Shown: positions 5,601 to 38,589 of the stretch, in pieces
Layout of the letters: the number at the start of each line of letters is the position of its first letter
Numbering within the stretch: the stretch's first letter is position 1
Source of the DNA: Thraustochytrium sp. TN22
Lineage: Eukaryota; Sar; Bigyra; Thraustochytrida; Thraustochytriidae
NCBI GenBank assembly: GCA_013306675.1
Contig: JABLUY010000274.1
Coordinates: 2,502-45,157, forward strand
Length of the DNA stretch: 42,656 bases
Reading direction: 5' to 3'
Made by a program: the position numbers and the translations under genes
Notes under the pieces: generated by a model
Database searches by the model: none
Seen by the model: the letters and a program-made list of their open reading frames with translations, nothing else
Told to the model about the DNA's origin: nothing

Positions 5601-8600
5601 GTGCACCGAGCCACCCACCTTGGAGGTGGCCGCGCCGCCCTGCAGCGTGATGTTACCACCTTGCATCGTGCCGTCGCCCGACTGCAGCTGGATCGCGCCG
5701 CCAAACGCCGTGGAGTCAGACCCGCTCGCCTTGCCGCCCTGAAGCGAGATTTCGCCGCCGGCGCCCTTGGTGGAGTTGCCGGCAATGACCCGCATGTCGC
5801 CGCCGCGCGCGTCCGTGCTCGAGCCCGTCCGCACCTCAACGTTGCCGGCCTGAGCGCCCGAAGCGGCACCCGTTGAGATGCGCACAGCGCCAGAGCTGGC
5901 GCCCAGCTTGATGGCAGCCGGCGTCGCGACATCAATCTCGCCCGTGGCGGCGCCACTGCTCGAGCCGGACCGCACGCGGACCGTACCCCCGGCCGCAGCA
6001 CTGGAAGCGCCCGCCGAGATGGCCACGTCGCCGCCCACGTCGCCGGAGCCTTCGCCCGCCTCGATCTGGACGTCACCGCCGGCCGATGTCGCCGCGCCGG
6101 CGCGCACAGTCACGTTGGCGCCCTGCGAGGCGGTGCCGGAGGACCGCCCAGCCAGCACGCGAATGCCACCCGCCATGTTCGAGGTCGCATCCTCCGTGCG
6201 GATGTCAATGCCGCCTGTGGAGGGGCCGGCACCCGTCACCACCTCAATCGACCCGCCCACGTTCGTGCCAGACGAACCCGAGCGGACGCTCACGCCACCG
6301 CCCGCGCTTGCCGCCGAAGCGCCGGCCGCAACCAGCACGTGGCCGCCCGACCCAAGGCTGGCAGAGTCGCCGCCGACCAGCGTCAAATTTCCCGCAGACC
6401 CGGCGGCCGCAGACCCGGTGCTCACGGTGACAGCACCTGATCCAGTGCTCGCCACCGTGGCGGCCGCTGTGCTAATCTCGACCGGGCCGCTGCGCGCCGC
6501 CTGCGTCGACCCGCTCGTCAGCCGAATGCCACCGCCCGTGGCCTTGCCGGCACCGCCCTCCAGAGAGACGTCGCCACCCGCGCCCTTCTGCAGACTGGCA
6601 CCGCCCACGAGGGACACCTCGCCGCCAGTGCCGGAACCCGCCGCCTGCCCAGCGACAACGTCCACGCGCCCGCCATCCACATTTCCGGACGACGCTGCGC
6701 CGACCTGAAATGAGATGTCGCCGCCAGCGCCAGCACTGGAGGCGCCGGTTCGCATGCTCAGCGAGCCAGAGTCGCCCCCAGAGGAGCCACCTGTCTGAAG
6801 CATGACGGAGCCACTCGTCGCCGTGCTCGATGCTCTCGTCTCCACAAGAACGGCCCCGCTCGCGCCCTCCGCGCTCGCGCCGGCCGCGAGGTGAAGCTCG
6901 CCGCCGCGGCCGGAGCCCGTCGCGTTGCCCGCCTCGAGCGTCGCCGCGCCGCCCGCGCCTGCCCCGCTACCACCCGCATGCAGGTGCAGCTCGCCGCCCG
7001 CAGCGCGAGACGTCGACGTCCCGCCCGACACGCGCAGGGGCCCGCTCGCCGCCGCCGAGCCCACCGCCAGGTAGAGACCGCCAGACGCCGAGCTGGCATT
7101 GCCCGTCAAAATGCGAATTGACCCGGTCGAAGCGGCGTCCGGCGTTGCCACGCGCACAGCCCCGCTCGCGCCTGACCCCTCGCCAGCCTGAATATCCACC
7201 ATGCCGCCAGATGCCGAGCCCTCGACCAGCGTGGCACCACCCGCGATGCGCACGTCGCCGCCGTTGGACAGCGACGAGGCCCCGGCCTCCACCGTCACAC
7301 TACCGCCAGCCTTACCGGAGCCGCCGCTCGCGCCGCCGTTCATGCGCAGGGCGCCACCCTGACCCGAGGTCGCGGCGCCCGCCGACACCTCCACATCGCC
7401 GCTGCCCTGAACGGCATTGCCCGATCCGAGCTTGGCAGCGCCGGACGTTTGCGTCGCGTCGCCGCTGCGCACGCCAACCGCGCCCGAAGCGCGGGATGCA
7501 GCGGATGCCAATGCGAGGTCGCCGCTTGTCGTCGCTCCGGCACCGGTGGTCACCTGGACGCTACCGCCGGCCGACGCGCTGCTCGAGCCGGCCTGCACAA
7601 TGACAGCCGCCCCGGCACCTTCCACGGACGCCCCGGCCATCACACTCACCTGCCCAGCCGTGGCCATCGCGTTACCAGAGCCGACGGTGACGGCCCCGCT
7701 GCTGCCCGAGCTCGCCAGGCCGCTCGCCACGCGCACGAAGCCCGTCGCGGCGGTACCGTTCGCGGTGCCAATCACGGCCGAACCTGAGCTCACGGCGCCC
7801 GAGCCGGTAAGCACCTCGAGACGGCCGCCAGTTCCGGTCGCCGAGCTGCCGCCCGCGATGCTGACCGGGCCGCCGTCCGCCGAAGAAGCCGAATGACCGC
7901 CAGAGGCGATCAGACTGCCGCCCGCACCGCTCTTGGTGGTGTTGCCCGCCTGGAGGCGCACGTGCGCGCCGGCCTGAGCGGTGCTCGTGCCGGCGACCAC
8001 ACGAATGTGGCCCGCGCGGCCTGCGGTCGCGTCGCCCGTCTGCACGGAGAGCGCCCCGCTGGACCCGGCGGTCGCCGCGCCGCTCGCAAGGGAGACGCTG
8101 CCGGAGCCCACGACGGTGGCGTCTGCGGTGCGAAGTGCAAGCATGCCCGAAGACCCGCTCGTGGAGCTCCCAGACTGCACCGTCACGTTGCCGCCGGCGG
8201 ACGCACCCTGACCGCCCATCACCTCCACGGGACCGCCGGCGCCGCCCGACGACGAGCCCGCGCGCACGGAGACAGCGCCACCGCGCGCCGCACTGCCCGT
8301 TGTCGCACCGGCGTCAACCGTGATGTCGCCCCCATCGGTGCCGGTGGACCGGCCCACGGCGACCTTGATGTCACCGGCGCTCGTCGCATTTCCCGAAAGG
8401 ACATGCACGTGACCGGACGTCGAAGACGACGCCTGACCGGACTGCAGCACAACCGTGCCCGACGGGCCAGCGCCGGAACCTGCAGAGGCCAGCGAGAGCG
8501 ACCCGGAGCCGGAGGCGCCGGAGCCGGACACTACCAGGACGCGTCCGCCCGCGCCCTCCGCGCTGGCACCGCCTCGCAGGTTCACGCTACCGCCGACGCC

Positions 8601-11600
8601 ACTGCTCTCCGCAGCGCCCGCAGTCATGTTGAGGGCGCCGCCGCTCGCCGCGCGGCTCGCCGCACTACCGGCCGCAATGCTCACGCTAGCGCCGGTCGTA
8701 GCCGAGGCCGACGCGCCGGCGGCCATGCGGAGATCGCCGGCCCTCACGCCGGCCGCACCGGTGGCGATGCGCAGCGCGCCCGAGTGATCCTCGGCGCTGC
8801 CAGTCTGCACGCGCACGTCTCCGCTCGAGGACTCGCCGTCCGCGGAGCTCACATTGACCACACCCGAAACGCCGTTGGGCGCAGCGCCGGACTGGAGCAC
8901 CACCGAAGCGCCCTCCGCGGCGGCTTGGGAGCCGCCAGCAACGATTGAGACCGCGCCACCACGCTGACTGCCGGCGCTTGCCCCGCCGCGCACCTCGACA
9001 TCGCCACCAGCGCCGCTCGTGCCGGCACCGCCTGCAAGCCGCACGCGGCCGCCGCGCGACGCGCCATTTCCACCACCCAGGGTCACGTTGCCACCACTGC
9101 CAGACGTGGCCTGGCCCGCTAGGAGCGAGACTTCGCCACCACGGAAGGAGCCCGTGCCGGCCTCCACCTGCACGAAGCCACCGACAGCGTTGGAGGCCGA
9201 AGCGTCGCCGGCCGTCAACTCGACAGCGCCGCCCTGGCTGCCGGTCGAGGTCCTGCCAACCTTGGCGGAGAAGCCGCCTGCACTCACGGCGCCCGCCCCG
9301 GTGCGAAGCGTGATGGCGCCCGAAACGCCGGTCTCGCCGAGTGCGCTTGGCGTTGAAACGCTGAAGTCGCCTGACATGCGTGTCCCAGCACCTGTTTTCA
9401 GCTCGATAGCGCCACCAGACGTAGAGCCGCTGCCCGCATTGATGCGCACACTGCCACCGCTCGCGCCGGTACTCTGGCCAGCTGCCACAGTCACGTTGGC
9501 GCCCGTACCGGTGGTGGCGGAACCTGCCGCCACCTTGACGCTTCCACCCTGGGAGCTTCCGTCGCCCCCCGAGAGCTCAACGTGACCACCAGCGCTCGCG
9601 CGCGAAGCGCCGGCAGCCAGCGTCAAGTTGCCAGCGCTTGCCTTGCTGGACGCGCCAGAGCGCACCTCGACGCCACCAGAGGCGTCGAGCGCATCGCCCG
9701 ACCGCATCAGCACGCTGCCGCTCAGACCCTCGCTCGTATCACTCGTCCTCAGATTCATACTGCCCGAGTCGATGCCCGTACCCGTCTGCACGACAACATC
9801 CCCGCCAACGCCCTCGCTGGAGTCCCCGGCAGTCGCACGAAGGGAACCGCCCTGTGAACTGGAGTCCGTCGAGCCAACCTCCAAAACGATGTCGCCGGCT
9901 GACCCGGCGCCAGACACGCCCCCGGTGTAGATGCGCACCGCGCCGGTCGAGGCCGAGCCACTGCCAGAGCCGAGGCTGACATCTCCGGAGCCACCCTCGA
10001 GACCGTCGGCACTGTGCACCAGCACCGTACCGCTCGTGTTCGACCCGGCATGCGATCCACTTTGAATCAGCACGCCGCCGCCGCGCGCCGCCTTGGCGAG
10101 ACCGTGTCCACCGAGGAGCTGAACGCTGCCTGGGGTGGCGGCGCTCGAGGCGGCCGAACCAGCTTGGAGGATGATGTTGCCTGCCTTGCCCTGGCGTGAA
10201 TCGCCGGTAGAGAGCGTCATCGGGCCGGATGAAGCTTCCGCCGAGCCCGTGCGCAGCGTCAGGTTCCCGGTCGCCGTGCCCTTCGCGGACTCCAGCACCA
10301 TGTTGCCGCTCGAACCGGCCTCACTGGCGCCGGATCGCACATGGACGAGACCGCCCTTGCCCGAGACCGTGCGGCCACCAGTCAGCTCCAGGGAGCCGCC
10401 AGCGCTGCTGCCAGTCGCGTTGCCGGCTCGCATCGTTACCGTGGCGCCCGCTGCCTTGGCGCTCGTGCCGGCCTCGACGAGGACGCCGCCGGCCGTAACG
10501 GCGCTTGAATCGCCGGATCGCAGCGTGATCGAGCCGGAGGTGCCACCCGAGGCAGCACCGGAGCGCATCTCGATGACGCCCGAGCCCTCCGCGCCACCGT
10601 CCTGCGTCATCACCGTGGCGCCGCCTGTCTGGCCCATCGTGCTCGAGCCGCCCGAGAGTAGCAGACTGCCGCCCGAGAGAGCCTCGCCGCTGCCGGCCCG
10701 GATCGTCACATCGCCGGCCTCCGCCGTGCTCGTGGCGTTACCACCATACAGCGAGATGCTGCCAGCATGCGTCTGAGAGGACGAACCCGCGCGCACTTGC
10801 ACGCTGCCACCTTGCAGGACCGCGGACCCGGCGTCCACGACAACAGAGCCGCCGCCACGCGCGCCGTAGCCCGCGGTGATGTTCACGAGGCCGGCGGCGC
10901 CGGCCTCGGACGCCTTGGACAGGATTTGCGTATCGCCTGAGGTGCCGCTACTCCCCGACACCGCACCAGACTGCAGCGTCACACCTGCGCCCTTGCTCGC
11001 CGAGGTCGAAGTTCCAGCCGAGATGTGGATGGATCCGGCCTGGGAAACGGCGTCGCCGGTGGACAGGCGCATGGTGCCAGACTTCTGGCCAGCCGACCCA
11101 GACATGAGCAAAACGTCACCAGACTGCGAGGAACCGGCTGCACTGCCGGCCTCGAAGGCGCCGCTCTGCACTGCGGCACCACTCTTGATGATCACTTGCC
11201 CGCCCTTGCCGGAGCCCTGGCCCGCTGCAAACGCCAGATTGCCACCAGTCGCGGACCGTGAGACACCGCCCGTCACGATAACGGAGCCGGCATCGCCCGA
11301 GGTCACCGCGCCCGTACCAAGGACGAGGTCGCCCGATCCGTAAGTGCCGGCACCCGTCTCAATAGTCGCCGTGCCAGACTGACTGCCGCCGCCTGTGCGA
11401 AGCTCGAGCTGGCCTGAGGTCTGCTCGCTGCTCTCGCCCGTCTCCACCACAACGGCGCCGGAAGTGCCACCACTGCCCTTCGCAGCCGCTGACGAGGACA
11501 CCAAGATGTCGCCCGAATTTCCTTCGGAGGCGACACCCGACGCGACCCGCACAGCGCCGCCCGCGGTGGTCCCCTTGCCCGCCTCGAGAGTGAGGCCGCC

Positions 11601-14600
11601 GCCCGTCGTCTGGCCCTCGCCACCACTCAGGCGCACATCGCCACCGCCGTTTTTGATCCCCGAGCCGCCGAGGATCTCCACGCTGCCACCGGCCATGCCC
11701 AAAGTGCTCGCACCGCCCGCAACGCGCACGGCGCCGCCCAGACCGGCCTTCCCGAGGCCGGCCTCAAGGGCGATGGGCCCGCCCTCGCTGGAAGATTCAC
11801 CAGCGCTCAGCGAGATGCCAGCGCCCTGCGTGCCCTTGGACGCACCCGCCACCAGCGAGATGCCCCCGGCGTTGCTGGAGTCGCCCGTGACATCGCCCGT
11901 GTAAATGGCCACATCGCCCGAAGTCGACGCCGCCACGCCCGTGGCGAGCCGAAGCGCTCCAGATTCATCTGAGCCGGCGGCAGTCGCCAGCGAGACATCG
12001 CCGGAGGCGCCGGCCGTGTTCACGCCACTCTGAATGGAGACCTTGCCACCAGGCTGGCCGCGCTTCTCCGCGGCGCCCGCCTCGAGCACAAGGTTGCCGC
12101 CGCGGAAGGCCTGCGCACCGGCGCCGGCGCGAACAGATAGGTCGCCGCCCTGGCCGGCCGCCGCGTCGCCCGCCTGCAGCGAGACTGCGCCACCCTGAAC
12201 GCCACGCATCGAGGAGGCACCAGCCTCGATGCTCAAGTCGCCGGCACTCGTGCTGCCTGAGCCGGCCTTGAGGGCGAGTGCGCCGCCGGCGCCGGCTCTG
12301 GCCGAACCGGCGCTCACCACAATCGCGCCACCGTTGCCGGACCGGGAGGAGCCACCCTGCACGGACACGGTGCCGGCCTCCGAGCTCGAGCTCGCGCCTG
12401 CCTGAATGGCAACATTGCCGCCGCCAGTGCTGCCGTCGCCCGCCTGCATGGTGATGCCACCCGCCAGACCCTCCACCGCCTCGCCAGTGGAGAGCAAGAG
12501 GTCGCCTGTGCCGACGCTCTTGACATCGCTCTGGGCCGTGGCAAGAGAGATAGACCCGCTCCGCGCGCCCGTCTTGGTCGTCGGCCCGCTCTGCAGGGCG
12601 ATACTGCCGCCCGATGAACCGTCCGAGGAACCACCGACAAGACGAAGAGCGCCCGCGCCGCCCTTGCTGGCGCCCACCTCGAGCGTCACGTCGCCCGAGA
12701 CAGAGCTGGCGGCACCGCTCGACACGTGCACCGCCCCGCTGTTCGCGGCAGACGTACCGGACGTAAACGAAACGGCGCCCGAGTCCGCCGTCGCCGCGTT
12801 CGCGGAGGCCACACGCACCTCGCCCGTCGCGCCGAGCGTGCTGCCGCCGCTATGCAGCGTCAGGGCACCGCCCTGCTTCTCGGTGCTGCTGCCCGCCTGG
12901 ATGAGCACAGCGCCGCCCTGACCGTCGCCGTTCTGTGCGTCTCCGCCATTAATATGCACGGAGCCGCCAGAGGCCACCCCAGCGTCAGAGGCGCCACGGA
13001 TGTAGACACTGCCAGCAGGACCCAGTTCCTCGTCATCAGAGATGCTGTCGCCAGGCGAGATTGTAATGTCTCCGCCAACGGCATCCTCGGCAGCCGTGGT
13101 GCGCAGACGAAGAGCGCCACCGCGTGCAGCACGCGCGGCGCCCGCGGCAACGTCAATGTCGCCGGCCTGCGTCTCTGCACCGCCCGTGGCGATGAAGAGG
13201 TGCCCGGCTGAGCCCTCTGTGGATGAGCCCGTGCGCAGAGTCAAGTTACCGGCCAGGCTTTCCGTCGAGTCACCCGTGCGAAGGATGACGTTGCCGCTCT
13301 CCTTTGAGATCGCGTCTCCCGTCCCTAGGGTCAGATTGCCGGTCGCACGTCCCGCGCTCGGCGTAGCCAAGTCCAGGTTGCCGCTGCTGGCGCCGTCGCC
13401 CGCAGCGCCAGAGCGCAGCGTGAGCGCGCCGCCGTCAACACCTGCGGCGCCGCCAGTGCCGCCGCGAATATCGACGTGGCCGCCAGCGACGCCCGCCACA
13501 GAAGACGTGCCACCGCTCACAGATACAGGACCGGCGCTCACGGTCGCCTCCAGAGCCTCGACGTCCTCGACCATGCCCACGGCGCCGCCCTCGATGACGA
13601 GGTTACCCGCCAGTCCGTTGGTAGCCGTGCCAGACGCCAGACGCAGATCGCCACCGGTGAGGCCTTCGCCGGCCACAACATCGACCGAGCCGCCAGCAGC
13701 TGCGGCGCTGGAGCCACCACGCACGAGCACGTCGCCACCCTGCGCGGCTGAAGCGGCGCCAGCCTCCAGAGAGATCGCACCACCGCTCGACGACTTGCCC
13801 GTCGAGGCGCCAGCGCGAACGACCACATCACCGCCCACGCCGCCTGCGCCTGCGTGCACGCCAACGCTGCCGGCCTGCCCCCTATCGCTAGCGCCGGCCT
13901 GCAGCGAGACAGAACCCGCCTGGGAGCTCGACGAGCCGGTCTGCAGGACCACGTCACCCGAGACTCCATCCTCGGCGGAACCAGTCGCCACACGCACGCC
14001 GCCGCTGGTCGACACAGCGGACCCAGTCTGTAGAACCATCTCACCGGAAGACTCGGCACTTGCCACTCCAGTGGCGATCTCCACGGCTCCAGACCCGGCA
14101 GAGGCCGATGTGCGCATAGAGATCGGTCCAGAGGTGCCCTCGGCAGTGCTGGTGCCAGACTCGATGGTCAGAGCACCGCCTTGAGCGCCGGCCTGCTGCG
14201 TGGCGCCCGCCGTGAGGCGCAGCGCCGCCGCGCCAATTTGCGAGGAGCCCGCAACGACCTCCACATCGCCTGCCTGACCGGTCGAAGAGCCGCTCTGGAT
14301 CGATACAGCCCCCGAGGTGCCCGTCGAGGTGGAGGCGCCCGAGGCGATGAGAACCTCGCCGCTGCCAAGAGACGCAGAGTCCGCCGAGGCCAGGACCACG
14401 CGGCCGCTCGTACCGAGCGCGCTCTCGCCGGTTACAAAGCGCAGGTCACCACCGCGCGCGGCCTCGCCGGTCGTGCGACCAGCATGGACCGAGATGTCAC
14501 CGCCCGCGCCCGTATCTGCGGCGCCTACAGCAACCACGATACTCCCGGCAGAGCCGCCCTGCGAGGCGGCGCCCGTGGACAGCGCGAGGTCGCCCGCCTT

Positions 14601-14735
14601 GCCGGTCGTCGCGGTCCCGGTGCCGACAGAGACGTCACCACTGCCACCCACACCGGGGGTGGCCGCCGAAAAGTAGTCGCCGCCGTTGGCACTGGAGACC
14701 TTCACAGACGCGCTCTTGCTCACAGCATCCGTGCC
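1..14735 (-). repeat. C-terminal block of 15-residue repeats
   Basis: From residue about 7076 to the window edge the chain returns to 45-bp units. Three textures can be seen. At about 5.2-14.7 kb the units are degenerate and Ser/Ala-rich. At about 4.2-5.2 kb they carry aromatic residues (NVWFAAG, IGFYGG, VSFTTG). At about 1-2.6 kb they form regular, well-conserved higher-order repeats. No stop codon is met, so the real end of the protein lies to the left of this window. Confidence 0.9.
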
Positions 14736-17700
14736 AATGGTAAAGCGCTTGTGCATAACCTGGAAGGCGGCAAGCAGATCGAGGGTGATGGCTTGCTTGT
14801 CGACCTCATGGAAGTCCTCAAGCTCGAACCCCTTCTCAGCGAAGGTGAGGTTATCAATGATGTTGATGTACTCCGGGAAGACCTCCTCAAGCTGCTGCGC
14901 GATGACGCCGCGCACCACCTTGTTCTCCGTCATGCCGCGCACGGCCCGCCACTTCTCGATGTACTGGTACTGCTTCATCTCAATGAGCTGGAGACGATGG
15001 TATACCGAAGACGTGTCGTAGTCCGCGATGTTCTCCTTGATGCGCCGGTCCGACGGGTAGACGACCGAAGTCGCTTGAATCGGTACGTGAGAGAAGATCT
15101 CGTCCTGACGAATCCGGAAGGTGATGTTGCCGTGCACCATGTTCTCCGTGTTGCCAATGGTAAACTCCGACTCGGGCGAGGTGAACTCCATGCGCGTGTC
15201 GCGCCCTGGCTCAAAGACCACGTCCTCGTCCACGCTAGAGCTCAGACGCACCTCGCCGTGGCTCAGCACGGACACGCGCGCCTGTTTGGATGCATCCTGC
15301 AGCGTCACATGGCTCAGCGGGCCGTTGCCTGGGCTCACATACACCGAGCCCGAGACAGCGCCGGTGCCAGCGCGAAGCTCAATGTCCCCAGCAGTGCCGC
15401 CATCGGCGCCGCCCGTGGATAGCACGAGCGAGCCGCTCGAGCCACTCGCTGACCCTGTACCAACCACGATTTCGCCCGAGTCACCAGCGGCGCTTGCGCC
15501 CGTGCTCACCGCCACGTCACCCGAGTCGCCGGCGCCCGTGGTGCCGGATTCCAGCGAAACCTTGCCCGAGGCGCCAGCGCTGCTCGCAGACGCGATGGTC
15601 ACGTCGCCGCTCTCGAATCCGGGCGTGGCGTCGCCCCCGCGGCCCGAGAGGATCCGCATCGCACCGCCGCGGCCTGCCTGAGAGGCGCCGGCCTGCAAGG
15701 TCACGCTGCCACCCTCGACCGCGGAGCCGCGGGCGGCGCCAGCCGTGATGCTCACTTGACCACCCGTCGCGCTGCCGCTCTCGCCAGCCGCCAGGACAAG
15801 GTTACCGGCGCGCGACGCACCGCTCCCCGTGCTCAGCTCGAGGTCGCCGCCCGCTCGCGCGTCAGAGCTGCCCGCAGCGAGACGCACGGAGCCTCCCGAG
15901 CCAGCGCTCGAAGCGCCAGCGCGAAATTCGAGGGCACCAGCCTGCAGGGCGGCGTCGCCGGTGCGGAGGACCACCGACCCGGACTCGCGCTGTGAGCTGG
16001 CACCCGAGGTGATGGCGATGTCCCCGGTCACTTGGTCCGCAGGCGCCGAGGTCACGTTCACAGACCCGCTGGCGCCGGCGGCGCTGGCGCCCGAGCGGAC
16101 TTCAATGGAGCCGCCATGGCTCGCACCAGAGGCACCCGCGACGAGGTTCAGGTTGCCACCCTCGCCCTGGTCGCTGCCGCCGGCCTCCAGTACGACGTTG
16201 CCGCCCTTGGCGGAGACGCCCGTGCCAGCGGCCAAGTGCAGCGTGCCACCAGACGTGCTGCCGGCGCCGGCGCGCGCCTCGAGCAAGCCGCCAGCGCCAT
16301 GGGCGGCCTCGCCGGCCGTCAGACGCAGCGCACCGCCGGTGCTGCTCGCGGCCTGTGTGGCGCCCACCGCGACCTCGATGTCGCCGGCCGGACCGACCCT
16401 TGCTGCGCCGGTGCTGATCTGCACGGAGCCAGCAGCCCCGAAGTCGGAGTCGCCCGTGGCCAGACGCACGCGGCCCGAGTCCGGGTGCTGCGCCGTGCCG
16501 GGCGTGGAGCGCACGTCTACCGACGCCGTCTGGCGCGTGTCCGATGATGTTGCGCCGATGGTGAAGTGCGCGTGCTGCTCCTGCACGGCGGCGAGAATGT
16601 CAATGATGAGACCAACCTTGTCAATGACATGAAAGTCCTTCCACCATAGGCCCTTCTCGCGCACGCCCCACTCCTTGACCTTGACGTGCTCGGGAAATAC
16701 TTCGCGCAGCTGCTGCGCGATGATGCCTCGCACCGGGCTGCCATCGTGGCGGCGGATGGCCGCCCACTCGTCCGTGTACCGGTAGGTCTTGAGCTCGATC
16801 GTCTGCAGGCGCTGCAGGATTTGGTTCTTGTTCGTGTCCTGGATGTCCCGCTTGATGCGCCTGTCGGACGAGCTCTGAGTGCTCGGCGTATGGAGGGGCA
16901 CGTGCGAGTCGACCTCGTCATCTTCGATACGGAAAACCGTCTCAGACCCGTTGGACGCCCAAAAGCGTGTGCCAACGACAGTGCCGTGCTGAAAGTCCAG
17001 CGTGCCGGAGGCTTGGACCTTGAGCTGCTGGTCCTGACGGGACTGCAGCATCAGCTTCCCGCTGTCTTCGGCGGTGATGAGCGACTCGCCGTCCGAGGTC
17101 TGCACCTCGAGCGACGCGCTCGCGCCGCCAGGAGCCAAAATCACGCTGCCGCCCTGCCCATCGCCCTCCGGGCCGCCCCGAATCTCGACATTGCCGCTCA
17201 GGGTGCCGCCTTGGCCGCCCGCCACAAGGACGCTACCGCCCGTGCCGAGAGCAGAGGTGCCAGCGTTGATGACCACGTCCCCGGCCGACTCGCCGGCGCT
17301 GCTGCCCACGAGGAGGGAAATAGAGCCGGAGGCGGCCACGGACGCGTCGGCGGTGCTCAGGAGGAGGTTGCCGGTCGTCGCGCCAACCCCGGAGGAAATG
17401 GTCAGGTTGCCCGAGGCGCCGCTGCTGCTTGACGCGGCCCCTGAGGACAGCGCCACAGAGCCGCTCGTGGCAGTGGCAGCAGCGCTTGCCATCGAAAGAT
17501 CGCCCGACGCATCGGTTCCGGCGCCCGAGGAGATTGTCACGGCGCCACCCGTGCTGGACAACGCGGTGCTCGCACCAGCCAAGACCTCGACGTCGGCGCC
17601 GGTCGTGGCCACCGTGCTGGTCCCGGCACCAATGCGCGTTGCACCTGCAGTTGCGGCGTCCCCTGAGGAGACTGTCACATCGCCAGACGTGCGCACCGAC

Positions 17701-20700
17701 GCGTCGCCCGACGTGAGCATCACGGCGCCCGAGTCGGCAATGGCCGAGCCTGCGGAGCTCAGCTGCAGAGCGCCGGTCGTGCCGCTGCTCGAGGAAGTGG
17801 AGCCCGTGGTCACGGTCACATCACCACCCACCGTGGCACCCTGACCGCCAGCTAGGCTCACCGTACCGCCCGTGGCCGCATTCGATGTGCCCACGGAAAG
17901 CTCAATTTTTCCGGCCGTGCCACTCGTGGCGTCGCCAGAAACCAGGCGAAGAGCGCCAGACGCACCGTGGGTCGCGGTGCCGGTGCTCAGCTCCAGGTCA
18001 CCCGTATCGCCATCGGTGGATGCGGCGGTCGTGATGGAGATGGCGCCCGTGGCGCCCGAAGTCGAGGCGTCACCGCTCTCGATGGAGACGGAGCCGCCCG
18101 TGGCGCCCGCCAGGGAGGTCGCACCAGCCTTGAGCGAGATGCTCGCGCCCTCGACGCTTTCGCCCGTGCCTGGCGCCAGGTAGATGGACCCAGCTTGCGT
18201 GGCGCCCGTCGCCGCGCCGGAGAAGATGCGCACATCTCCGGTTTGGGCGCCAGTTGCGTCGCCAGAACCAATGAGGACCGGCCCGCTCGTGCCGCCCACC
18301 GCGTCGCTGGACCGAATGTCCACCGTGCCGCTGGAAGACACGAGGGAGCCGCCGCTGCGCAGCCGCAGAGTACCTCCCGTTACGAGATTGGCCCGGCCGG
18401 CCGAGATGCTCACCGTGGCGCCAGCGTCTGTCTCGCTGCTCGTGGCACCAGCTGCGATCGTGATCGCCCCGGCACGCCCAAGGAGGGAAGGGCCAGTCGT
18501 GATGGACACCTCGCCGGAGGTGGCTCCGGTCAGGGCAGCCTCGCCGGTGGACAACGAGATAGAGCCCGTCGCAACGCCAGAGGAGTTGGTTGCGAGCGAA
18601 ATGGACCCGCTGGTGCCGGATGAACCGGCACCAGCCGCTAGGATGTGGATGTCACCACCTGTCGAGCCGCTCAGCTCCGAGACACCGGAGGTGATGTTGA
18701 TCAGGCCGCCGCTGCCGTCCTGAGAGTTGCCCACGGCCAAGACGATGTCGCCCGCGGAACCCGAAGAGCTCGATGCACCTGTGCGCAGCACCACACGGCC
18801 GCTGGCTCCCTCCGCACTGGTCCCGGTCGAGAGCGTCACATCACCAGTGGCTCCAAAGGTCGAGTCGCCTGTGGCTAGCGAGACGCGGCCCGACGATCCA
18901 GATGTGCCGGCGTCGGCGGACTGCATCGTAATCGCGCCGCTGCCAGTCTCTGCCGAGCTTCCGGACTGAATGGTGACCGAGCCTCCCAGGACGCCATCCG
19001 CATTCGAGCTCGTCGCACCTGCCCCGATGGTCACGTTGCCGCCAGTGCCGAGCGTAGCGTCGCCAACGCTCACAATGATATTGCCAGCGCTGCCGTAGTC
19101 CGCGCTGCCGGTGCGCAGCGAAATGCCGCCGCTCGTGCCGACCGAAGATGTCCCTGTGCTCAGGGAGATCGCGCCCGAGACGCCCACGAGACCAGCGTTT
19201 GCGGTGGCGAGACGGAGGTCGCCGCTCGAGGTGCCCGCGCTGGTACCACTCTGCACAACGACGGAGCCGCCAGACGCCGCCGTGTCCTCCACGCCAGTTT
19301 GGCCGCCAGCGCGCAGCTCGAGGATGGCACCCTGGCCCTGGTCGCCGGAGCCAACGGCCAGAGTGACAGCGCCGGCTGCACCGCGAGTAGCGTCACCGGA
19401 AGCGATGATTACCGCGCCCGACGAGCCGGCCGATGCCTCGCCAGAGGCGAGAGCAATGCCGCCAGAAGAAGCGCTCCAAGCGGAGCTCAAATTTACCGCG
19501 CCGCTGACGCCATCGCCGGCGCCAGTGACCAGCTCGATGTGGCCACCCACGGCGTCATCGTCGGTTGCGGTGCCAGCGGTCAGCACGATGCCCGCACCGG
19601 CGCCCACGAGATTCGAGGCGCCGGCGGAGAACACGATCTCCCCGGCCTGGCCCTCGGCCGCATCGCCTGTCGTAAACACAAGGGCGCCAGAAGCCCCCTC
19701 TCCAGCGGCCCCGGTAGCGAGACTGATGCCGCCGGACGTCGTGCCAGCGCTTCCTGTCATCAGAGCCAGGTTGCCGCTCTGCGCCTCCTTGCTCGCCCCG
19801 CTCCAAAGCTTGATGCTGCCGCCTGTGGCTCGCGACGAAGATCCGGCCGTCATGTTGAGGTGGCCACCCGTTGCGGTCCTGGCGCTAGAACCCAGCGACG
19901 CGCCGGCGTTGACGACGACGTCTCCGCCTGCGTCAATGCCGGTCCCTGCCGTGAGGTTAAGGAGGCCGCCGCTGCCGTCCAGGCCTGTGCCCGACACTAG
20001 CGTGGCGCTCGCGCCAGCGCCCGAGGCGCTCGAGCCAACCGAGAGGCGAAGCGAGCCGCCACGGCCGCCCGCAGACGCACCAGTGGTCATGCTCACGGCA
20101 CCGCCGCTGCCCAGAGCGGCAGACCCGCTCGAGATGGCCACGCGGCCGCCGTCATACGTGCCGGTGGCGCCCCCTACAGTCAGCACGATGGAGCCGGAAG
20201 CTCCGCTCGTGCCAGCGCTGGGCGTTGACAGCAGAATGCTGCCGCTGCTGGACTTGGCCGAGGCGCCAGAGGTCATGGAGATGCTTCCACCCGTCCTGCT
20301 GAGAGCCGCCGTATCGCTGAGCTGGTCACCAGCCGTGAGGGCCACGTTGCCGCCAGCGCCGGAGCCGGACGTTCCCACCGTCAGGCTAATAGATCCAGCC
20401 TGGCGGGATGCCGATGCGCCGGTGGAGAGCGTCAGCGCTCCCGTCCCCTTTGAACCTGCACCTGTTTGGACCGTGACAGCACCAGACCCGCCGCTGTTGG
20501 TGAGAGAGTCCGCCGAGGCGAGGAGAACAGAGCCTGTCGTCCCCGTAGCAACGCCCGTAGCGCCCGACACGAGTTCGACCTTGCCACCAGTGCTCGTCAG
20601 GCTCGTGCCGGCGGACATCTTCACATCGCCGCCGGCGTCTGCGCTATTGCCCACGCTCATGGTGATGTCGCCTGCCCGGCCGCTCAGCGCGCTGCCAGTG

Positions 20701-23700
20701 GAGATGGAAATGGTGCCGGAAGTGGCGTCCTCGCTATTGCCCGTGATGAGCGAGAGGGCGCCCGAGGTCGCCGCGTTGTTGGCGGACTTGACAGTCACCG
20801 AGCCGGAGCCCAGGCCGCCACCGCTCGAGCCAGTCACCATCGAGATGCCACCTCCGGGCCGCGGGCCAAGAGCGGAGCCAGCCTCCATGGAGATGTCGCC
20901 GCCGCCCGTGCCAGCCGCCTGCGCACGCGTAGATTGGTCGTCGCCAGCGCGGATCGCCACCGAGCCGCCACCACCCTGAAAGGCATTGGATGTCACGCCG
21001 TGGCCCGCGGCCAGCGTGAGGTCGCCGCCGGTGGCCGTGCCCGTGGAGTTGCCTGCTGCCACCTCGATGCTGCCGCCGGTGCTAGCCGTCCCAACCTGTA
21101 GCGCGATATCGCCGCTCGCGCCCGCGGTGGCGGCGCCGGTAGAAATAGAAACATCGCCAGAGCCGCCAGCACCGGCCGATGTGGACATGAGCAGGGAGCC
21201 CGTCACGCTGGTCGCGCCGGCCAGGCCGGTGGCAATCTCCACGTGGCCGCTCTCCTTGCTGTCACTGGCGCCGGAGGTAAGACGGATCGCGCCGCCCGAG
21301 GCATCCTCCGAGGCGCCTGCCGTTAGCGAGATGCTTCCACCCGTACCACTCACAGAGTTGCCGTTCTCGAGCAAAATTGCGCCCGCGGAGCCTTCGCTAG
21401 CGCCCGTCCGCACGCGAACTGCGCCACCAGTGCCGTCGTCGGAAGCGCCCGTCGTGAGCGAGATGTCGCCGCTCGTCGCACCGCTCCCGGCTGACGCCGC
21501 AGCCGTGGAGATGGCCACGCCGCCCGAGGTAGCTGACCGGGTCGCACCTGAGGCGATTTCAATGGCGCCGCCATCCTCGTCGTCCGCCACAGTAGCGCCG
21601 GCCGTCACCGAGACCTTGCCACCGGCACCGTCCGAAGAGCTGCCAACTGCGAGGATGATATCGCCAGCTACGCCCTCGGACGCGGAAGTGCCCGTACTGA
21701 GTGCAATGAGGCCGGTGCTGCCCTTGCTCGCCGTGCCGGTGGAGAGCGCGACACTCCCGCTGTTGCCCTGTAGGCCGCCCACAGCGGTGCGTAGCACGAC
21801 GTTACCACTGGTCGTGCGGTCGCTGCCGCCCGAGGTCATGACAATGCTGCCGCCTGTCTTGGAAGTTCCGGCGCTAAAGCCGGCTGTGACTGTCACGTTG
21901 GCGCCGCGCTCATCGTTGCTCTCGCCCACGGACAGCGCGATGCCGCCAGCGGTGCCGGTGCGGGGCACATCGCCCGTCGAGATGGCCACAGCGCCCGAGC
22001 CGCCTGTCGTGGATCCACCCTGGCCGGTGCTAAGCGTGATGTCGCCGCTGACCCCGTTCAAGCCTGCATCCTGCGTGGCCAGCTCAATGCTGCCGCTCGA
22101 GGTCGCCGTGCTCTTGCCACCAAAGACAGAAACGCCTGGAGCGCGCCCGCTGGCCACGTCGCCCGCCGCGATACGTACGACGCCATCGGTCGAGCTGCTG
22201 GCAGAGGTGCCGTCGCCGGGCTGGATGAAAATGCCGCCGGCGGGCCCGCTAGCCGCATCGCCCGTGCTAATGCGGACCGCGCCGCTGCCCTGGGCCAATC
22301 CGGGACCCGTGGAGAGGGAAATGTCCCCGCTGCGGCCCGACGTGCCGGCGGTCGCAGTCTCCAGTGCGATGGCCCCGCTGCTCGCCGCGCCGGCCCCCGA
22401 GGTGATCGTGACGCTGCCACCGGTCGCACTATCGCTCGTCGTGCCAGCCGTGACGCGCACGTTGCCACCGTGGCCCGAGTCCCCCGCACCGACGCTAAGC
22501 TCAATCCCGCCCGCCGCGCCGTCCGTGGACTCGCCAGTCGAGAGAAGGATCGCGCCGGACTGCGCCTCTACGGCGTTGCCTGTCACGAGCCGCAGGCTGC
22601 CGCTGCCGCTGGCCGTCGAGTTGGCAGTGCGAATGAAGATCGCCCCGCTCGTGCGCGCGCCACCGGAGCCCGAGGTCAGCTGAATGCTGCCGCCCGTGGA
22701 GGTGGTCGCCGCGCCTGCGGTCACCAGGACATCGCCGCCCTTGGCAGCACCGAGCGTGCTGCCTACAGAGACCACAATGTCGCCGGCCTCGAGCCGGGAG
22801 TTGCCCGTGCGGATGTTCACTGAGCCCGAGCTGGCGCCAGTGTTGCTCGCGTGTGCTGAGGCGAGCGTCAGGCTGCCACTGCTCGTGCCGCCAGTACCCG
22901 TGGTCACATTGATGGCACCGCCCTCATGCAGAGAGCTGGCGCCGCCAAAAATGGTTACATCTCCGCCATTGCCGCCCGTGGAGCGACCGGCGAGCACCTG
23001 AACACCACCGGCCGCGGCTGAGGCGGAACCCACAGAGAGGCCGATGCCCCCCGAGGACCCGGCCGCCGCGGCGGAAGTGGACAACTCGATGCTGCCGGAG
23101 TTGCCCTCGGCGGCGCCGCCCGCACCGGTGGTGAGGCGCACGGAGCCGCCCGTGCCGGCAGTCCCGGCGGCAGGCGTGCTGATGCTCACGTTACCGCTAT
23201 TGCTGTCCTCGCTGCCGCCGGAAACGATGATCACCTCGCCGCCAGCAGCCTTGTCGGCATCGCCGGCCGTGAGACTCACAGAGCCGCCCACACCAGAGTC
23301 GCCAGCGCCGACGCTGAGCTGGAGATCACCGCCTTTGCCGTCTGAGGCCACGCCGGTGCGCAGAGAGATGGAGCCCGAGGTCCCAGAGGTAGCATTTCCC
23401 GTCAGGAGCGAGATGGATCCGGAGGCACCCTCGGAGGGCGCATTACTCGTCCGCAGCGAAATAGCACCGCTCGAGCTCTCGGCGCTCGCGCCGCTCCGGA
23501 TGAAGACCGAGCCACCCGTGACGCGGCCCGAGGACACATCACCGGCACTCAGCTCCATGGCGCCGCCAGTGGCATCCACGCTGGACCCCACCGAGAGGAG
23601 GATGCGGCCCGCCGCAGCGTCCTGGGAGGTACCCGTGGTGAGAGCGATCTCGCCCGTACTGCCGACGGCCGAGGTGCCCGTGGAGAGCGCGACGCGGCCA

Positions 23701-26700
23701 GAGGCTGCGCCCGTGATGGTGCCCGCGTCGGCAGTCTTAATGACCACGCTGCCGCTGCCCTGACGCTCGCTCGCGCCACTGGCAAGCAGCAGGCTGCCGC
23801 CCGTCTGAGATAGTGCCTCGCGGCCCGTGGCGCCAGCACGCATCTCAACATCAGCGGCCTTGCCAATGTTGGCTTTTCCAGCAACAATAGAGATGCCACC
23901 CGCGCCAGAAGCACCTGCACCCGTAGCGATAGAGATGCCGCCCGAGGCAAGCGTCGTCGCAGCGCCCGTGGCGAGCGTCACGTTGCCCGAGGAGGTCTGC
24001 GCAGCCGCGGACGCCAGCGAGACACGCCCGCTCGCATACTTGGTGCTGGCGCCCGAGATCATGAGGAGCGCACCGCCACTGCCCTGCGTGCTCTCGCCGG
24101 CCTGAATGGCGATCTTGCCGCCGTCACGGCCCACGCCAGCGCTCTGGCCCACCGAGAGCAGGAGGTCGCCGCTTGCGCCCTTGGGCGCGTTGGAGGTGGA
24201 CATCACGATGCTCCCGCTCGACCCCCCTACCGAGCCGGCAGTGCCGGTGCGCAGCGTGAGGTTACCGCTGCCGGCCGTGGAAGCCTCCACATCTGCGGTC
24301 TCAAGGCTAAGGTCGCCCGTGTTGTGGAACGCGCTGCGGCCAGAGGTAATGGAAACATCGCCGCCAAGGCCTCCCGTGGATCGACCAGCCGTGATCGTCA
24401 CGGCACCGCCCTGGCCCGCATCGCCCTCTCCCACGCTCAGCGTGATGGCCCCGCCCGTGCCCGCGGTGGCCTCGCCGGTCTCCAGGACGATGGCACCCGA
24501 AGGGCCGCTCGTGGTGGCGCCGGTCGAAAGCGTGACGCTGCCCGTGCGCTTGCCGCCGCTCGCAGAGGCGTCCGCGCTGCGGATGAGCACCGCGCCTGTG
24601 TTTGCCGTGTCCGAAACGCCCGAGGTGATCTCCACGGCGCCGCCCGTGCCCTTGGTCGCAGATCCCGCCTGTAGCGTCACCTTCCCGCCGGAGCTGGAGG
24701 CGCCCGTGGCCGAGGTGGCGCCGCCAATGAGCTGCACGCCACCGCCGTTGCCCGCGACGGCGTCCGCCTCCGTGACGGCGTCGCCGCCGCGGAGAACGAC
24801 ACCGCCGCCCTGCGCGAGCTCCGAGCTGCCCGCATCGAGCGTGACACTGGCGCCGGGCGCCGCGTTGCTGTCGCCCGCCGCCAGGGAGATGTTGCCCGCG
24901 GCATGAGCGGCGTTGCCAGAGGTAACAGAGCCTGTCTCGAATCGCAGCGTCCCAGAGCTCGCCTTGGCGGCCGAGCCCGTGCTGACCGTGATGGGGCCGC
25001 TCTTGCTCTCGTCCGAGCTCGGCGTCTTGACCGAGATGGCGCCGGTTGCCGCCTTGGTGCTTCCACCGGACTCAATGGTCAGGTCGCCGCCCTCGCCGTT
25101 CGTCTGCGTGCCTGCGCTCAGGCTGAGCGTGCCGCCCTTGCCTACGCTGCCCGAGCCAACCGCGATGCTGAGCGACCCGCCGGCGACGTCCTCCGAATCG
25201 CCGGTGCGCACGGTGAGCGAGCCAGAGGGCTCGCTCACGCTCGCGCCCGAGGCGAGCAGAATGTCGCCGCTCTGCCCGGTCGACCCGGTGGCGTCCGCGG
25301 AGACAATCTCCACGGCACCGCTCTGGCCCTCATCGCTGGCGCCGCTCGTGACATAGACAGCGCCGCCGGTCTCCTCGCCGTCCGGAATGCTACCGGCCGT
25401 GATGTGCACATTGCCGGCCGCATCGCCGGTCCCGGTCGTGTCGCCGACGCTCAGGTGAATGGAGCCCGCCGACCCGCCGCTCGCAGCGCCCGTGGCCAGG
25501 TGAATCGCGCCACTGCCGCCGCCGGGCGCAGTTCCGGTGCTCAGGCGGATGGCCCCCGAGTCGCCGCTCGCGCCACCCGTCTGCGTCTGCAGCAAGAGGG
25601 ACCCGCTCGTAGTGGACGCGGAGGCGCCCGTGGTGAGAGAGATGGAGCCACCCGTGGCGGCGCCCTGGCCCGCACGCAGCTGAATCGCGCCGCCGGCACC
25701 GGAGCTGCCCGTGCCGACGCTGAGGAGGATGTTCCCGCCAGCCGTCTGGCCAGCGCCCGTGCGAAGCTCGATAGCGCCCGCCTTGCCGTTGGTGGCCTTG
25801 CCCGTGCGCACAGAGACGCCGCCCGAGACGCCGCCGGGCAGGCCGTTGAGCACGGTGGCAGCATCCGCGGTCTGCAGCAGCAGACTGCCGCTCGAGGTGC
25901 GCGACGAGGCGCCTGTGGTCACGTTCACTGAGCCACCCACCTTGGCGCTGTGTGCGTAGCCAGCCGCCAGCGTGATGTTGTTGCCGGCGGTCTCGCTCGA
26001 TGAGCCCACGGCCAGCTTGATGGATCCGGCCATGCCGGCGCTGCCGTCGGCATCGCCCGTCTGCAAGCTAATGGCGCCGGTGGCGCCATCGCTGGAGGCC
26101 CCGGTTCGAACTGTGATTGCGCCGGAGGAACCCTCCTGGCCGGCATCCGCAGTCAAGACCTCGATCGCGCCACTGCTGGTCTCCACCGAGGCGCCGCTCG
26201 TGATGTGCACGGCGCCACCGGTCTGCTCCTCGACATCGCCGGCCTGCAGGCGCAGAGCACCGGCGGTGCCGGCGCCGCTGGCCGTGCCAGGCTGCAGCGA
26301 GATTGAACCAACAGTGCCGTCTGCCGTATCGCCTGTGGTGACTGTGATCGCGCCCGAGGCTCCCGAGTTGTGCGCCTCGCCGCTGGCAATGGAAACCGCG
26401 CCTGTGGCGCCTGAGGAGGCCTCGCTCGTGCTGGCCGTCGCCAGCTCGAGAGCGCCCGTGGGCCCCGTGGCCGATTCACCGCTCAGCAGGGTGATAGCAC
26501 CGCCGTTGCCCAGGCCGCCCGCGCGGCCAGCCTGGATGAGGACCGAACCGGCGTCCTTGGTGGAGCCCGCCGAGTTGCCGGCGCGTAGCTGGATGGAGCC
26601 ACCCACGGCGTTCGAGGTGCCATTACCGGCGTGGAGACGCACGCCGCCCGCGAGATGGCCGTTCGTGGTGCTGGCGGAGTTGCCGGCCAGGACCTCCACG

Positions 26701-29700
26701 TCGCCGGCACGCGCGGCACTGGCACTGCCAACGGCAAGCGAGATCCCGCCCGAGTTGCCCTCCACGGCAGTGCCGGTGGCGATGCGGATGCTGCCGGAGA
26801 CGGCCTCCTCCGTGGCGGCGCCAGTCGCCAGACGAATCTCGCCCGAGGCCACGTCCGTGGCAGCCTGCGTGGCGAGCTCGATCGCACCGCTCGCCGCTGC
26901 CTGGCTTGCGCCGGACTCGATGCGCACCGAACCACCAGCGCCAGCGGTCTTGCTGGTCACGTTGCCGGCACGGAGCGTCACGTTGCCGCCGGCGCCTGAG
27001 ACGCCAGAGCCGACCTGCAGCGAGATGGCGCCGCCGGCCTCGGCGTCTGAGGTGCCCGTGGCCAGGTACAGCGCACCAGAGGCGGCATCGCCGGCGTTCC
27101 CTGTGGTAATGTTGACAAAGCCGCTCGAGCCGCGGTCGGTGGTGGCCGACTGCGTGCGAATGGCAATGTTGCCGCTCGTACCCTCGACGGAGCCGCCGCT
27201 GGTCAAGGAAATGTCGCCGCCGTCGCCCGTGGACGTGTTGCCAGCCTGCAGGCGGATGTCACCGCCGTCCGCCGCGAGTGAGCCGGTGCCCACCCGAATA
27301 TCAATGTCGCCGCCTGCGTGGCGCGAAGACGCGCCCGTCTGGAGCAGGAGGTCACCCGAGGCGGCGCCCAAGGAGGAGCCCGTGACGAGTGCGATGGACC
27401 CGCTACGAGAGGTGGCGTGCGTAGCAGCTGCCGTCTCCAGTGTGATGCCGCCCGTCCGCGCCTGGGAGGACGCGCCACTCGTGAGGCGGATAGAGCCGCC
27501 CGAGCGCGCATCGTCGCCCGACATACTGCCCGCGCTGATGCTCACAGCGCCGCCAACACCGGACTCCCCCGAGCCGACCTCAAGGCGAATGTCGCCCGCG
27601 CGCGCGCCGGTCGCAGCGCCCGTGGACAGGGCCAGGTCGCCCGACTTGAAGCCCTCGCTGGTGCCAGTGCCGACGGAAACAAGGCCGCTGGCGCCCTCGG
27701 CACCGCTGTCCGCACTCCGGATCACGACGTTGCCGCTCGTCGTCTCGGCACTCGTACCCGAGACGACCGTGACATGACCACCAGTGAGGCCGTCGCCGGT
27801 GGTGTTGCCACCGCTGAGGATGACGTTGGCGCCGGCGCCAGACATGGATGTGCCAACTTCGATTTCGATGGTGCCAGCACGCCCGTCGCTCGCCGCGCCA
27901 GTCTGCAGCTTGAGCGCGCCCGAGGCACCCTCTGTGGACGTCCCGGTGGACAGCGTGATGGATCCCGAGGCGCCGCCGATGGAGCCGGCACCCGGCGTGT
28001 GAATGAGGATAGACCCGCTCGTGGTGCGCGCCGAAGCGCCCGAAGCCAGCTCCACGCTGCCGCCCGTGGCCGATGCATCGCCATTTGCGAACGAGGTAGA
28101 TCCCGCGGCCATGGTCAGGTCGCCGCCCGGGCCGGATCCCGCGCTGCCGCCCTGCAGCGTGATGCTGCCGCTCGAGCCTTGCGCGCTGCCCGTGGTGAGC
28201 GAGATGGAGCCCGAGTCGCCACGCGTTGCGGTACCGGTGAGCACGTCCACGTCGCCACTCACGCCACTCGTGCCGGCGTTGGCCGTGGCCAGGGTCATGG
28301 CGCCGCTGGAAGTCGCCGTGCTGCTGCCACTGCGGATGGTGACGTCGCCGCCGCTCGCCGAGGCGGCTGTGCCACCTTCCACGAGGACGTGACCGCCCGC
28401 CACGGTGGACCTGCTCTTGCCAGAGGCCGCGCCGCCGCGAATTTCCACGTCGCCGCCGTCACCGCCGCCGACCTCATCCGTGCTGAGGCCGGCACCCGCC
28501 TGCAGAAGGATGTTGCCACCCTCAGCGCTCATCGTATCACCGGCGCGCAGCGAAATGAGCCCGCCGTTGCCCGCAGTGCCCGTGCCGACCGCCAGCACGA
28601 TGTTGGCGCCCGCCTGCGCCTGGCCCGTGCTGAGGCGAATCTCGCCGGCATTGCCCTTGGTTGCAGTACCAGTGCTCAGGTGCAGCGCGCCGCTACTGCC
28701 CGTGGTCGCCGCGGCGTTCACGGTGCGAAGCGTGATGGACCCGCTGCTGGACGAGGCCGAGGCACCGGACTTGATAAGCACAGCGCCACCGGTGGCGCCG
28801 GCAGAGCCCATGGCACCGGCCGTGATGTTCACGTGGCCGCCGCGCCCCGAGGAGCCGGCGCCGACCGTGACCGAGATGTCGCCGCCGTGGCCGCGCGAGA
28901 GCGCAGCGCCGGTGGAGATCGCAATTGTCCCCGAGTCGCCCTGAGACGAGGTGCCCGTCTTGAGCAGCATCTTGCCGGAGACGCCACGCACGCCGGCGTC
29001 CGCAGACTGGATGGCAACGTCGCCGCTAGAGCCCTCGAGGCCGCGGCCTGAGGTGAAGTTAAGCACGCCGCCCATGCCGCCCAGGGACTGACCCGCCGTG
29101 ATGGTAACGTTGCCGCCGCGGTTGCTGCTCTTGTCGGAGCCATTCGTGGCGCCGGCGCGAATGAGCACAGTGCCACCCGTACCGGCGCTCCCGTGCGTGC
29201 TGTTGCCGCCAAAGATCTCCACAACGCCACCGGACTTGAGCTCCTCGCTGGTGTCGCCGGCCTGGAGGCGCACGCGACCACCATTCCCGGCGCTGGCCTT
29301 GCCGACGGTGAGGTCGATGCGGCCGCCGGCGCCGGAGGCCGCAGAGGCGCCAGTGCTGAGCAGAATAGCACCGGAATGGCCGGTGGTGGCTGTGCCCGTG
29401 GAGAGACGGATGAAGCCGCTGACGCCGCCCGTGCCAGCGCCGCCAGACGGCGTGGCCAGAGAGATGGAACCCGAAGAGCTGAGCGTGCCGCGGCCGCTGA
29501 TGATGGACACCTCACCGCCTGTAAAGCCCGTCGTGATGGTGTTGCCTGCGTTAATGAGGACATCGCCGCCACTGGCCGTCTTCGCGCGACCGACCTGGAG
29601 GCGGATGTCGCCGCCCTGGCCGGCCTCGGAGTCGCCCGTGAGGAGATCAATGCCGCCGGAAGGGCCGCCGAGGCCGAGGCCGGTTTCAATCTTGACGTGC

Positions 29701-35960: not shown

Positions 35961-36096
35961 CACGGCGAGGCACGAGATCCTCACTTCCCTCTACTCCCTC
36001 ACTCACTTCCCTTCACTTCCCTCCCTTCGGCCCAACGTCGGGTGAATGACCCGAGGCAAGCCTAGCCTGTCTACGAACCACGCGCGCGCGCAAGGG

Positions 36097-38410: not shown

Positions 38411-38589
38411 ACTTGGTTCAAGTCGAAGTCGGCGCCTTGGACAGCACGGCATCATAGGATGGGCGAGCCTGGCTTTCGGGGTTCTTTCTGTCTCTCCGGC
38501 CTCCTTCCTCGCCTCGTGAGCTTGGCGGGGCAGCGCCGACGGCGGTGCAGCCGGCAGGCAGGCGCCAGACGTTAAGCGCGGCGCGAATT

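Follow-up and report, generated by a model that had tools for sequence, protein, structure and literature searches.

S74/ICA domains are described in phage fibres and in the transcription factor MYRF, where they trimerise and the chain is then cut just before a serine (accessible portions of PMC3742443, PMC8326128 and PMC10769870). Phage tail fibres and spikes (phrog_1980 and others) carry a single C-terminal S74 domain behind a stalk. The mosaic adhesive trimeric (MAT) surface fibres of Bdellovibrio comprise S74 and non-S74 members side by side; they measure about 1,000 aa, and the S74 members end in the domain (PMC10769870, available text). Polinton-like viruses, which are protist elements, have large modular fibres of up to 3.9 thousand aa with a single, often C-terminal, S74 domain, and no 15-residue repeat is described in the available part of PMC12220804. 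MYRF is a membrane-anchored transcription factor in which a coiled coil follows a single ICA domain (PMC3742443 and PMC8326128, accessible portions). This coiled coil is reported as the main driver of trimerisation, and mutations in it alter both trimerisation and cleavage (PMC8326128, same portions).

The window analysed here (42,656 nucleotides of Thraustochytrium sp. TN22, part of contig C193 in a 37.9 Mb assembly of 453 contigs) encodes a giant repeat protein with a secretion leader and two internal, duplicated S74 domains that retain their active-site residues. We read it as an extracellular fibre, secreted by a non-photosynthetic protist, that would be trimerised and cut by its two internal ICA domains, and assign this reading a probability of about 0.52. 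The minus-strand frame runs without a stop from window position 35990 down to the window's low edge (base 3). Base composition predicts approximately 243 stops in its 11,994 codons, and the other five frames across the same stretch contain 81, 110, 424, 257 and 212. Residues are numbered from window position 35984 (residue 1), which makes the first Met residue 9. The features are as follows:

3..35960, minus strand: giant ORF whose first Met is at window 35960; it codes for at least 11,986 aa and has not closed at the low edge
35835..35960 (approximate limits), minus strand: probable secretion leader with hydrophobic core LAALAVLVVVVSAAQVRAA, hydropathy 2.13
35505..35843, minus strand: head rich in Cys, in which the stretch around 35559-35639 gives a marginal match to PSI (plexin repeat)
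17130..35174, minus strand: N-side fibre of 15-residue G-rich repeats
16869..17129, minus strand: stalk 1, a non-repeat stretch just ahead of S74 no. 1
16569..16868, minus strand: S74/ICA no. 1, SDRRIK at 16868, Pfam core 16680-16868, predicted cut before Ser6373
15354..16478, minus strand: repeat segment separating the two S74 domains
15054..15329, minus strand: stalk 2, a non-repeat stretch just ahead of S74 no. 2
14748..15053, minus strand: S74/ICA no. 2, SDRRIK at 15053, Pfam core 14868-15053, predicted cut before Ser6978 (Pro-Ser)
3..14642, minus strand: C-side fibre of 15-residue repeats
3..2618, minus strand: array of 217-219 aa super-repeats; contig C350 consists of the same kind throughout

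Apart from the leader, the readable part of the giant ORF has no strong TM-like stretch; a marginal one (hydropathy 1.71) lies inside the repeats. Together with 779 repeat-unit starts, this leader upholds the view of an earlier note on this DNA that the protein is a secreted repeat protein. The head is labelled Cys-rich first and PSI second because its PSI match (PF01437, E 3.8e-5, 24.4 bits) barely exceeds the Pfam cut-off of 23.1 and is missing from the genome-wide PSI scan at E ≤ 0.001. It occurs once in the genome, on C193, and beyond residue 160 the ORF contains no Cys at all. A divergent neighbour ORF (window 38548-40818, plus strand) encodes a TM-like leader and an F5/8 type C-like domain (1.6e-6), with weak Ig/cadherin-like matches under their cut-offs. 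The assembly returned no Chloroa_b-bind (chlorophyll a/b-binding) match in 37.9 Mb, with a positive control that responded, and the algal setting proposed earlier was abandoned.

The bulk of the protein is a 15-residue G-rich repeat, roughly GGxVxLxxGxSxxGx, and units no more than 22 residues apart span 10,403 of the 11,994 residues. Our guess from the sequence pattern is that the repeat adopts a beta fold. The repeats gave no phage match in a search with the low-complexity filter on, no significant match to solved structures (best 0.085) and no match to PHROGs for repeat-only pieces (0/5). A long phrog_1980 stretch extending across the repeats was not reproduced with the repeat alone. Median dN/dS between super-repeats was 0.175 (interquartile 0.133-0.214, maximum 0.327) over 276 non-independent pairs of 24 complete copies, three in the window and 21 in C350, which argues that the array is kept as protein. 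We consider it extremely improbable that separate repeat genes were wrongly joined by the assembly or the gene model. The array is highly repetitive, and contigs C350 and C106 end inside repeats, but the frame holds for about 36 kb through moderately diverged repeats and both S74 domains lie in unique sequence.

The SD.R.K motif is present twice in the giant ORF, at residues 6373 (window 16868) and 6978 (window 15053), and the Ser-Lys dyad (SDxRxK) is intact in both copies. Pfam PF13884 (Peptidase_S74) matched the region in two stretches (E 6.3e-26, 90.9 bits, cut-off 22), confirming the two S74 copies recognised earlier from the motifs SDRRIKRDI and SDRRIKENI, both of which are correct. A genome-wide scan gave 2.1e-13 and 3.6e-11 for the two copies. 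The earlier limits of 14736-17130 agree with a stalk 1 that starts at 17129 and a second S74 domain that ends near 14748. The claims that thousands of residues follow and that each domain has its own stalk also held: 4,915 readable residues lie beyond the second copy, and the two stalks are related (alignment score 60, maximum 43 in 500 shuffles). Stalk plus S74 cores scored 305, whereas 500 shuffles reached at most 70. Blocks widened to 360-380 aa by inclusion of flanking repeat scored 501, no higher than random pairs of repeat blocks can reach (200 pairs, mean 428, maximum 616), and therefore only the stalk plus S74 core is diagnostic. Duplication within the gene is the most likely origin of the pair, because the two domains, 42% identical, are sister rows in a 65-row tree (support 100/97). 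By itself the pair shows no strong sign of constraint (pS 0.55, pN 0.43).

When both S74 domains were given together, the best solved-structure match was MYRF (7dc3, 4.7e-10, via copy 2). Copy 1 alone also matched MYRF best (1.9e-8), with a phage fibre next at 0.23. The accessible portion of PMC8326128 gives 19 mutated MYRF positions, numbered here as in that paper; 14 fall within the aligned segment and the other five in the coiled coil. Ten of the 14 are kept in copy 1 and 11 in copy 2; the other three S74 domains of the genome keep 7/14 each. Both copies retain the S587/K592 dyad, R590, Y615, Y617, I637, Q639, E647, F666 and K671. T634, L667 and N678 are changed in both and V669 in copy 1. 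These residues and the structure matches support the MYRF-type label of the earlier note. MYRF resembles the giant protein in its dyad, Tyr pair and K671, its internal ICA domain and the stalk ahead of it, and shares Pro-Ser at the cut with copy 2. The giant protein differs in being a secreted repeat fibre with two ICA copies, no coiled coil and no DNA-binding domain found in the pieces scanned. After both S74 domains the MYRF-type coiled coil is absent, and the last short helix runs into a beta-like FTIG and then into repeats.

A clade of the window S74 domains with MYRF was neither rejected nor supported (p-AU 0.59, with MYRF represented by one short segment and 113 columns); p-AU was 0.42 with the S74-ATAD3 fusion of this genome added. 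The nearest row outside the window pair is a Phycisphaerae protein (87/92). The giant gene was considered as a MYRF orthologue and this was rejected on the readable part and the pieces scanned. No NDT80/PhoG DNA-binding domain was matched in the scanned pieces (3,919 of 11,994 aa), the S74 piece had no match to the MYRF_ICA extension (PF13887), no TM segment follows the ICA domains in the readable part of a protein whose end lies beyond the window, and the coiled coil is missing. Genome scans for NDT80/PhoG (0/1) and PF13887 (0/1, five candidates scored) found neither domain, but their positive controls were silent; in these scans, with silent controls, no genuine MYRF was found elsewhere in the genome.

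Both S74 regions match the phage tail-fibre family phrog_1980 (8.5e-19 and 1.2e-18), and tblastn of the S74 region against phages at E ≤ 1e-3 returned 37 records; the best of the 20 listed reached 2e-5, and each was below 60% identity. Each domain sits behind a non-repeat stretch, alike in both window copies, that may correspond to the stalk of phage fibres. In contrast to the single C-terminal domain of phage fibres, the giant protein has two internal ones, amid repeats that lack a PHROG match in the five repeat-only pieces. Capture of a phage- or virus-like fibre gene could have left the S74 pair as a functionless relic, as the phrog_1980 matches and the S74 fibres of protist polinton-like viruses (PMC12220804, available part) might suggest. 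We regard this as very unlikely, since the frame is open for about 36 kb, active-site residues are kept in both copies at 42% identity, and the viral-contig scans contained no near viral relative. A viral origin of the whole protein was also considered and rejected: the viral-contig scans held no confirmed relative, and the repeats have no phage, structure or PHROG match.

Viral and prokaryotic S74 loci were sampled (at least 43 and at least 67 loci, respectively). The domain was C-terminal in all 43 viral loci listed, with 96-112 residues from the Ser to the end and one locus cut by a contig end. Profile search of their ORFs gave 51 S74 matches, none followed by more than 150 residues. The 67 listed prokaryotic loci yielded 83 matches in 82 ORFs, six followed by more than 150 residues and two by more than 500. 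Internal S74 domains, as in the giant protein, were found in the bacterial loci L087, L116, L138 and L080. L087:1-4614, from a Herminiimonas MAG, is one ORF with two S74 domains about 400 residues apart (residues 899 and 1301), the second of which groups with the C-terminal type in the tree. Internal and tandem S74 domains thus have bacterial precedents, and an internal S74 alone is not unheard of. Unlike the giant protein, these bacterial proteins have at most 570 residues after the S74 match and no 15-residue repeat array; the 4,915 residues found here are unmatched in the sampled viral and prokaryotic loci. The earlier remark that no described system with this architecture is known is supported with this qualification. 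Internal and tandem S74 occur in bacteria and the parts are known, but no precedent was found for the giant secreted eukaryotic architecture with two S74 domains, and none of the titles listed from the open-licence PMC literature describes such a protein.

PF13884 occurs five times in the genome: twice in the window and once each on C256, C444 and C310. The C256 (L008) and C444 (L009) ORFs have a C-terminal S74 domain (1e-12 each) and group with a bacterial S74 (96/94). C310 (L010:3471-6479) holds a single 1,003-aa ORF, an S74-ATAD3 fusion, with a hydrophobic leader followed by S74 (4.2e-9), a long middle, ATAD3_N (6.4e-16) and AAA (5.8e-22). For its S74 domain too, MYRF was the best match among solved structures (0.0013). 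A publication joining endosialidase with ATAD3 was not found in the open-licence PMC literature.

Counting C193, the 15-residue repeat gave 91 matches at E ≤ 1e-6; the other contigs that carry it are C350, C106 and C195. One frame is open end to end through the 15,927 bases of C350 (L074, L075), encoding 5,308 aa of the same kind of 217-219 aa super-repeats as at the end of the readable window ORF; C350 is probably the continuation of the window gene. The C106 frame (L076, L077; 2,616 aa) runs open to the contig end and has a stop and a C-terminal knob. C195 (L078) is a complete, membrane-anchored ORF of 1,292 aa that has PT repeats and, around residue 154, a TM-like stretch. C106 and C195 share a C-terminal domain (41% identity) that has no Pfam match and no further copy in the genome at E ≤ 0.001. 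Neither has an S74 match, so the repeats do not generally depend on S74. S74 and non-S74 proteins thus stand side by side in this genome (the window gene versus C195 and C106), as among the Bdellovibrio MAT fibres; those fibres, in their size and terminal S74, are unlike the giant protein. As a fair guess, C193, C350 and C106 may belong to a single gene of some 19,900 or more residues. A tentative reading, in our judgement still doubtful, is that this gene encodes a self-cutting giant polyprotein, which two central MYRF-type ICA domains would trimerise and then cut into three separate fibres.

Under the reading that we prefer, a secreted fibre trimerised and cut at two internal ICA domains, the 15-residue repeats would form long beta fibres flanking a central double module. 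In each module a short stalk would lead into a MYRF-like S74/ICA domain. Three chains would meet at the ICA domains, with their stalks aligned in register as a trimer. Once the ICA trimer had formed, the Ser-Lys dyad would cut each chain just before Ser6373 and Ser6978; two cuts are predicted because the active-site residues are intact in both copies. Cleavage would yield three pieces: an N-side fibre that extends 6,364 aa from the Met to the first cut and ends in stalk 1, a 605-aa middle piece (S74 no. 1, repeats and stalk 2), and a C-side fibre with S74 no. 2 as its cap. Stalk tips, which are the ligand-binding part in phage and Bdellovibrio S74 fibres, would become exposed, and we infer a role in adhesion.

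Against the cut-fibre reading stand the missing coiled coil, the S74-free paralogues, the pS/pN of the S74 pair and the changed MYRF positions. With no MYRF-type coiled coil, the flanking fibre would have to drive trimerisation. The S74 domains may instead act as internal trimer clamps in an uncut fibre, the trimer being too loose or its geometry wrong for cutting. The long C-side fibre that directly follows S74, where the coiled coil is absent, fits this possibility, as does the effect of MYRF coiled-coil mutations on trimerisation and cleavage (PMC8326128, accessible portion). A pure clamp, however, needs neither a complete Ser-Lys dyad nor the surrounding residues, which both copies keep, and we hold it to be possible rather than probable. 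The cut pieces might also remain non-covalently bound, giving a jointed or breakable fibre able to shed its outer part. In favour of this, the freed ICA trimer would have no coiled coil keeping it separate, and there are long repeat fibres on either side; yet the phage ICA domain is released once cut (PMC8326128, accessible portion), and such a joint seems unlikely.

Known settings of the S74/ICA domain are MYRF and the fibres of phages, polinton-like viruses and bacteria; here it would serve in a eukaryotic extracellular fibre. This offers a possible connection between the domain's role in fibres and its role in a transcription factor. The giant protein also bears on whether an ICA domain can cut without a coiled coil, in the middle of a fibre. 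If the polyprotein reading is true, it would represent eukaryotic ICA use outside transcription factors, in fibres sub-micrometre to micrometre long.
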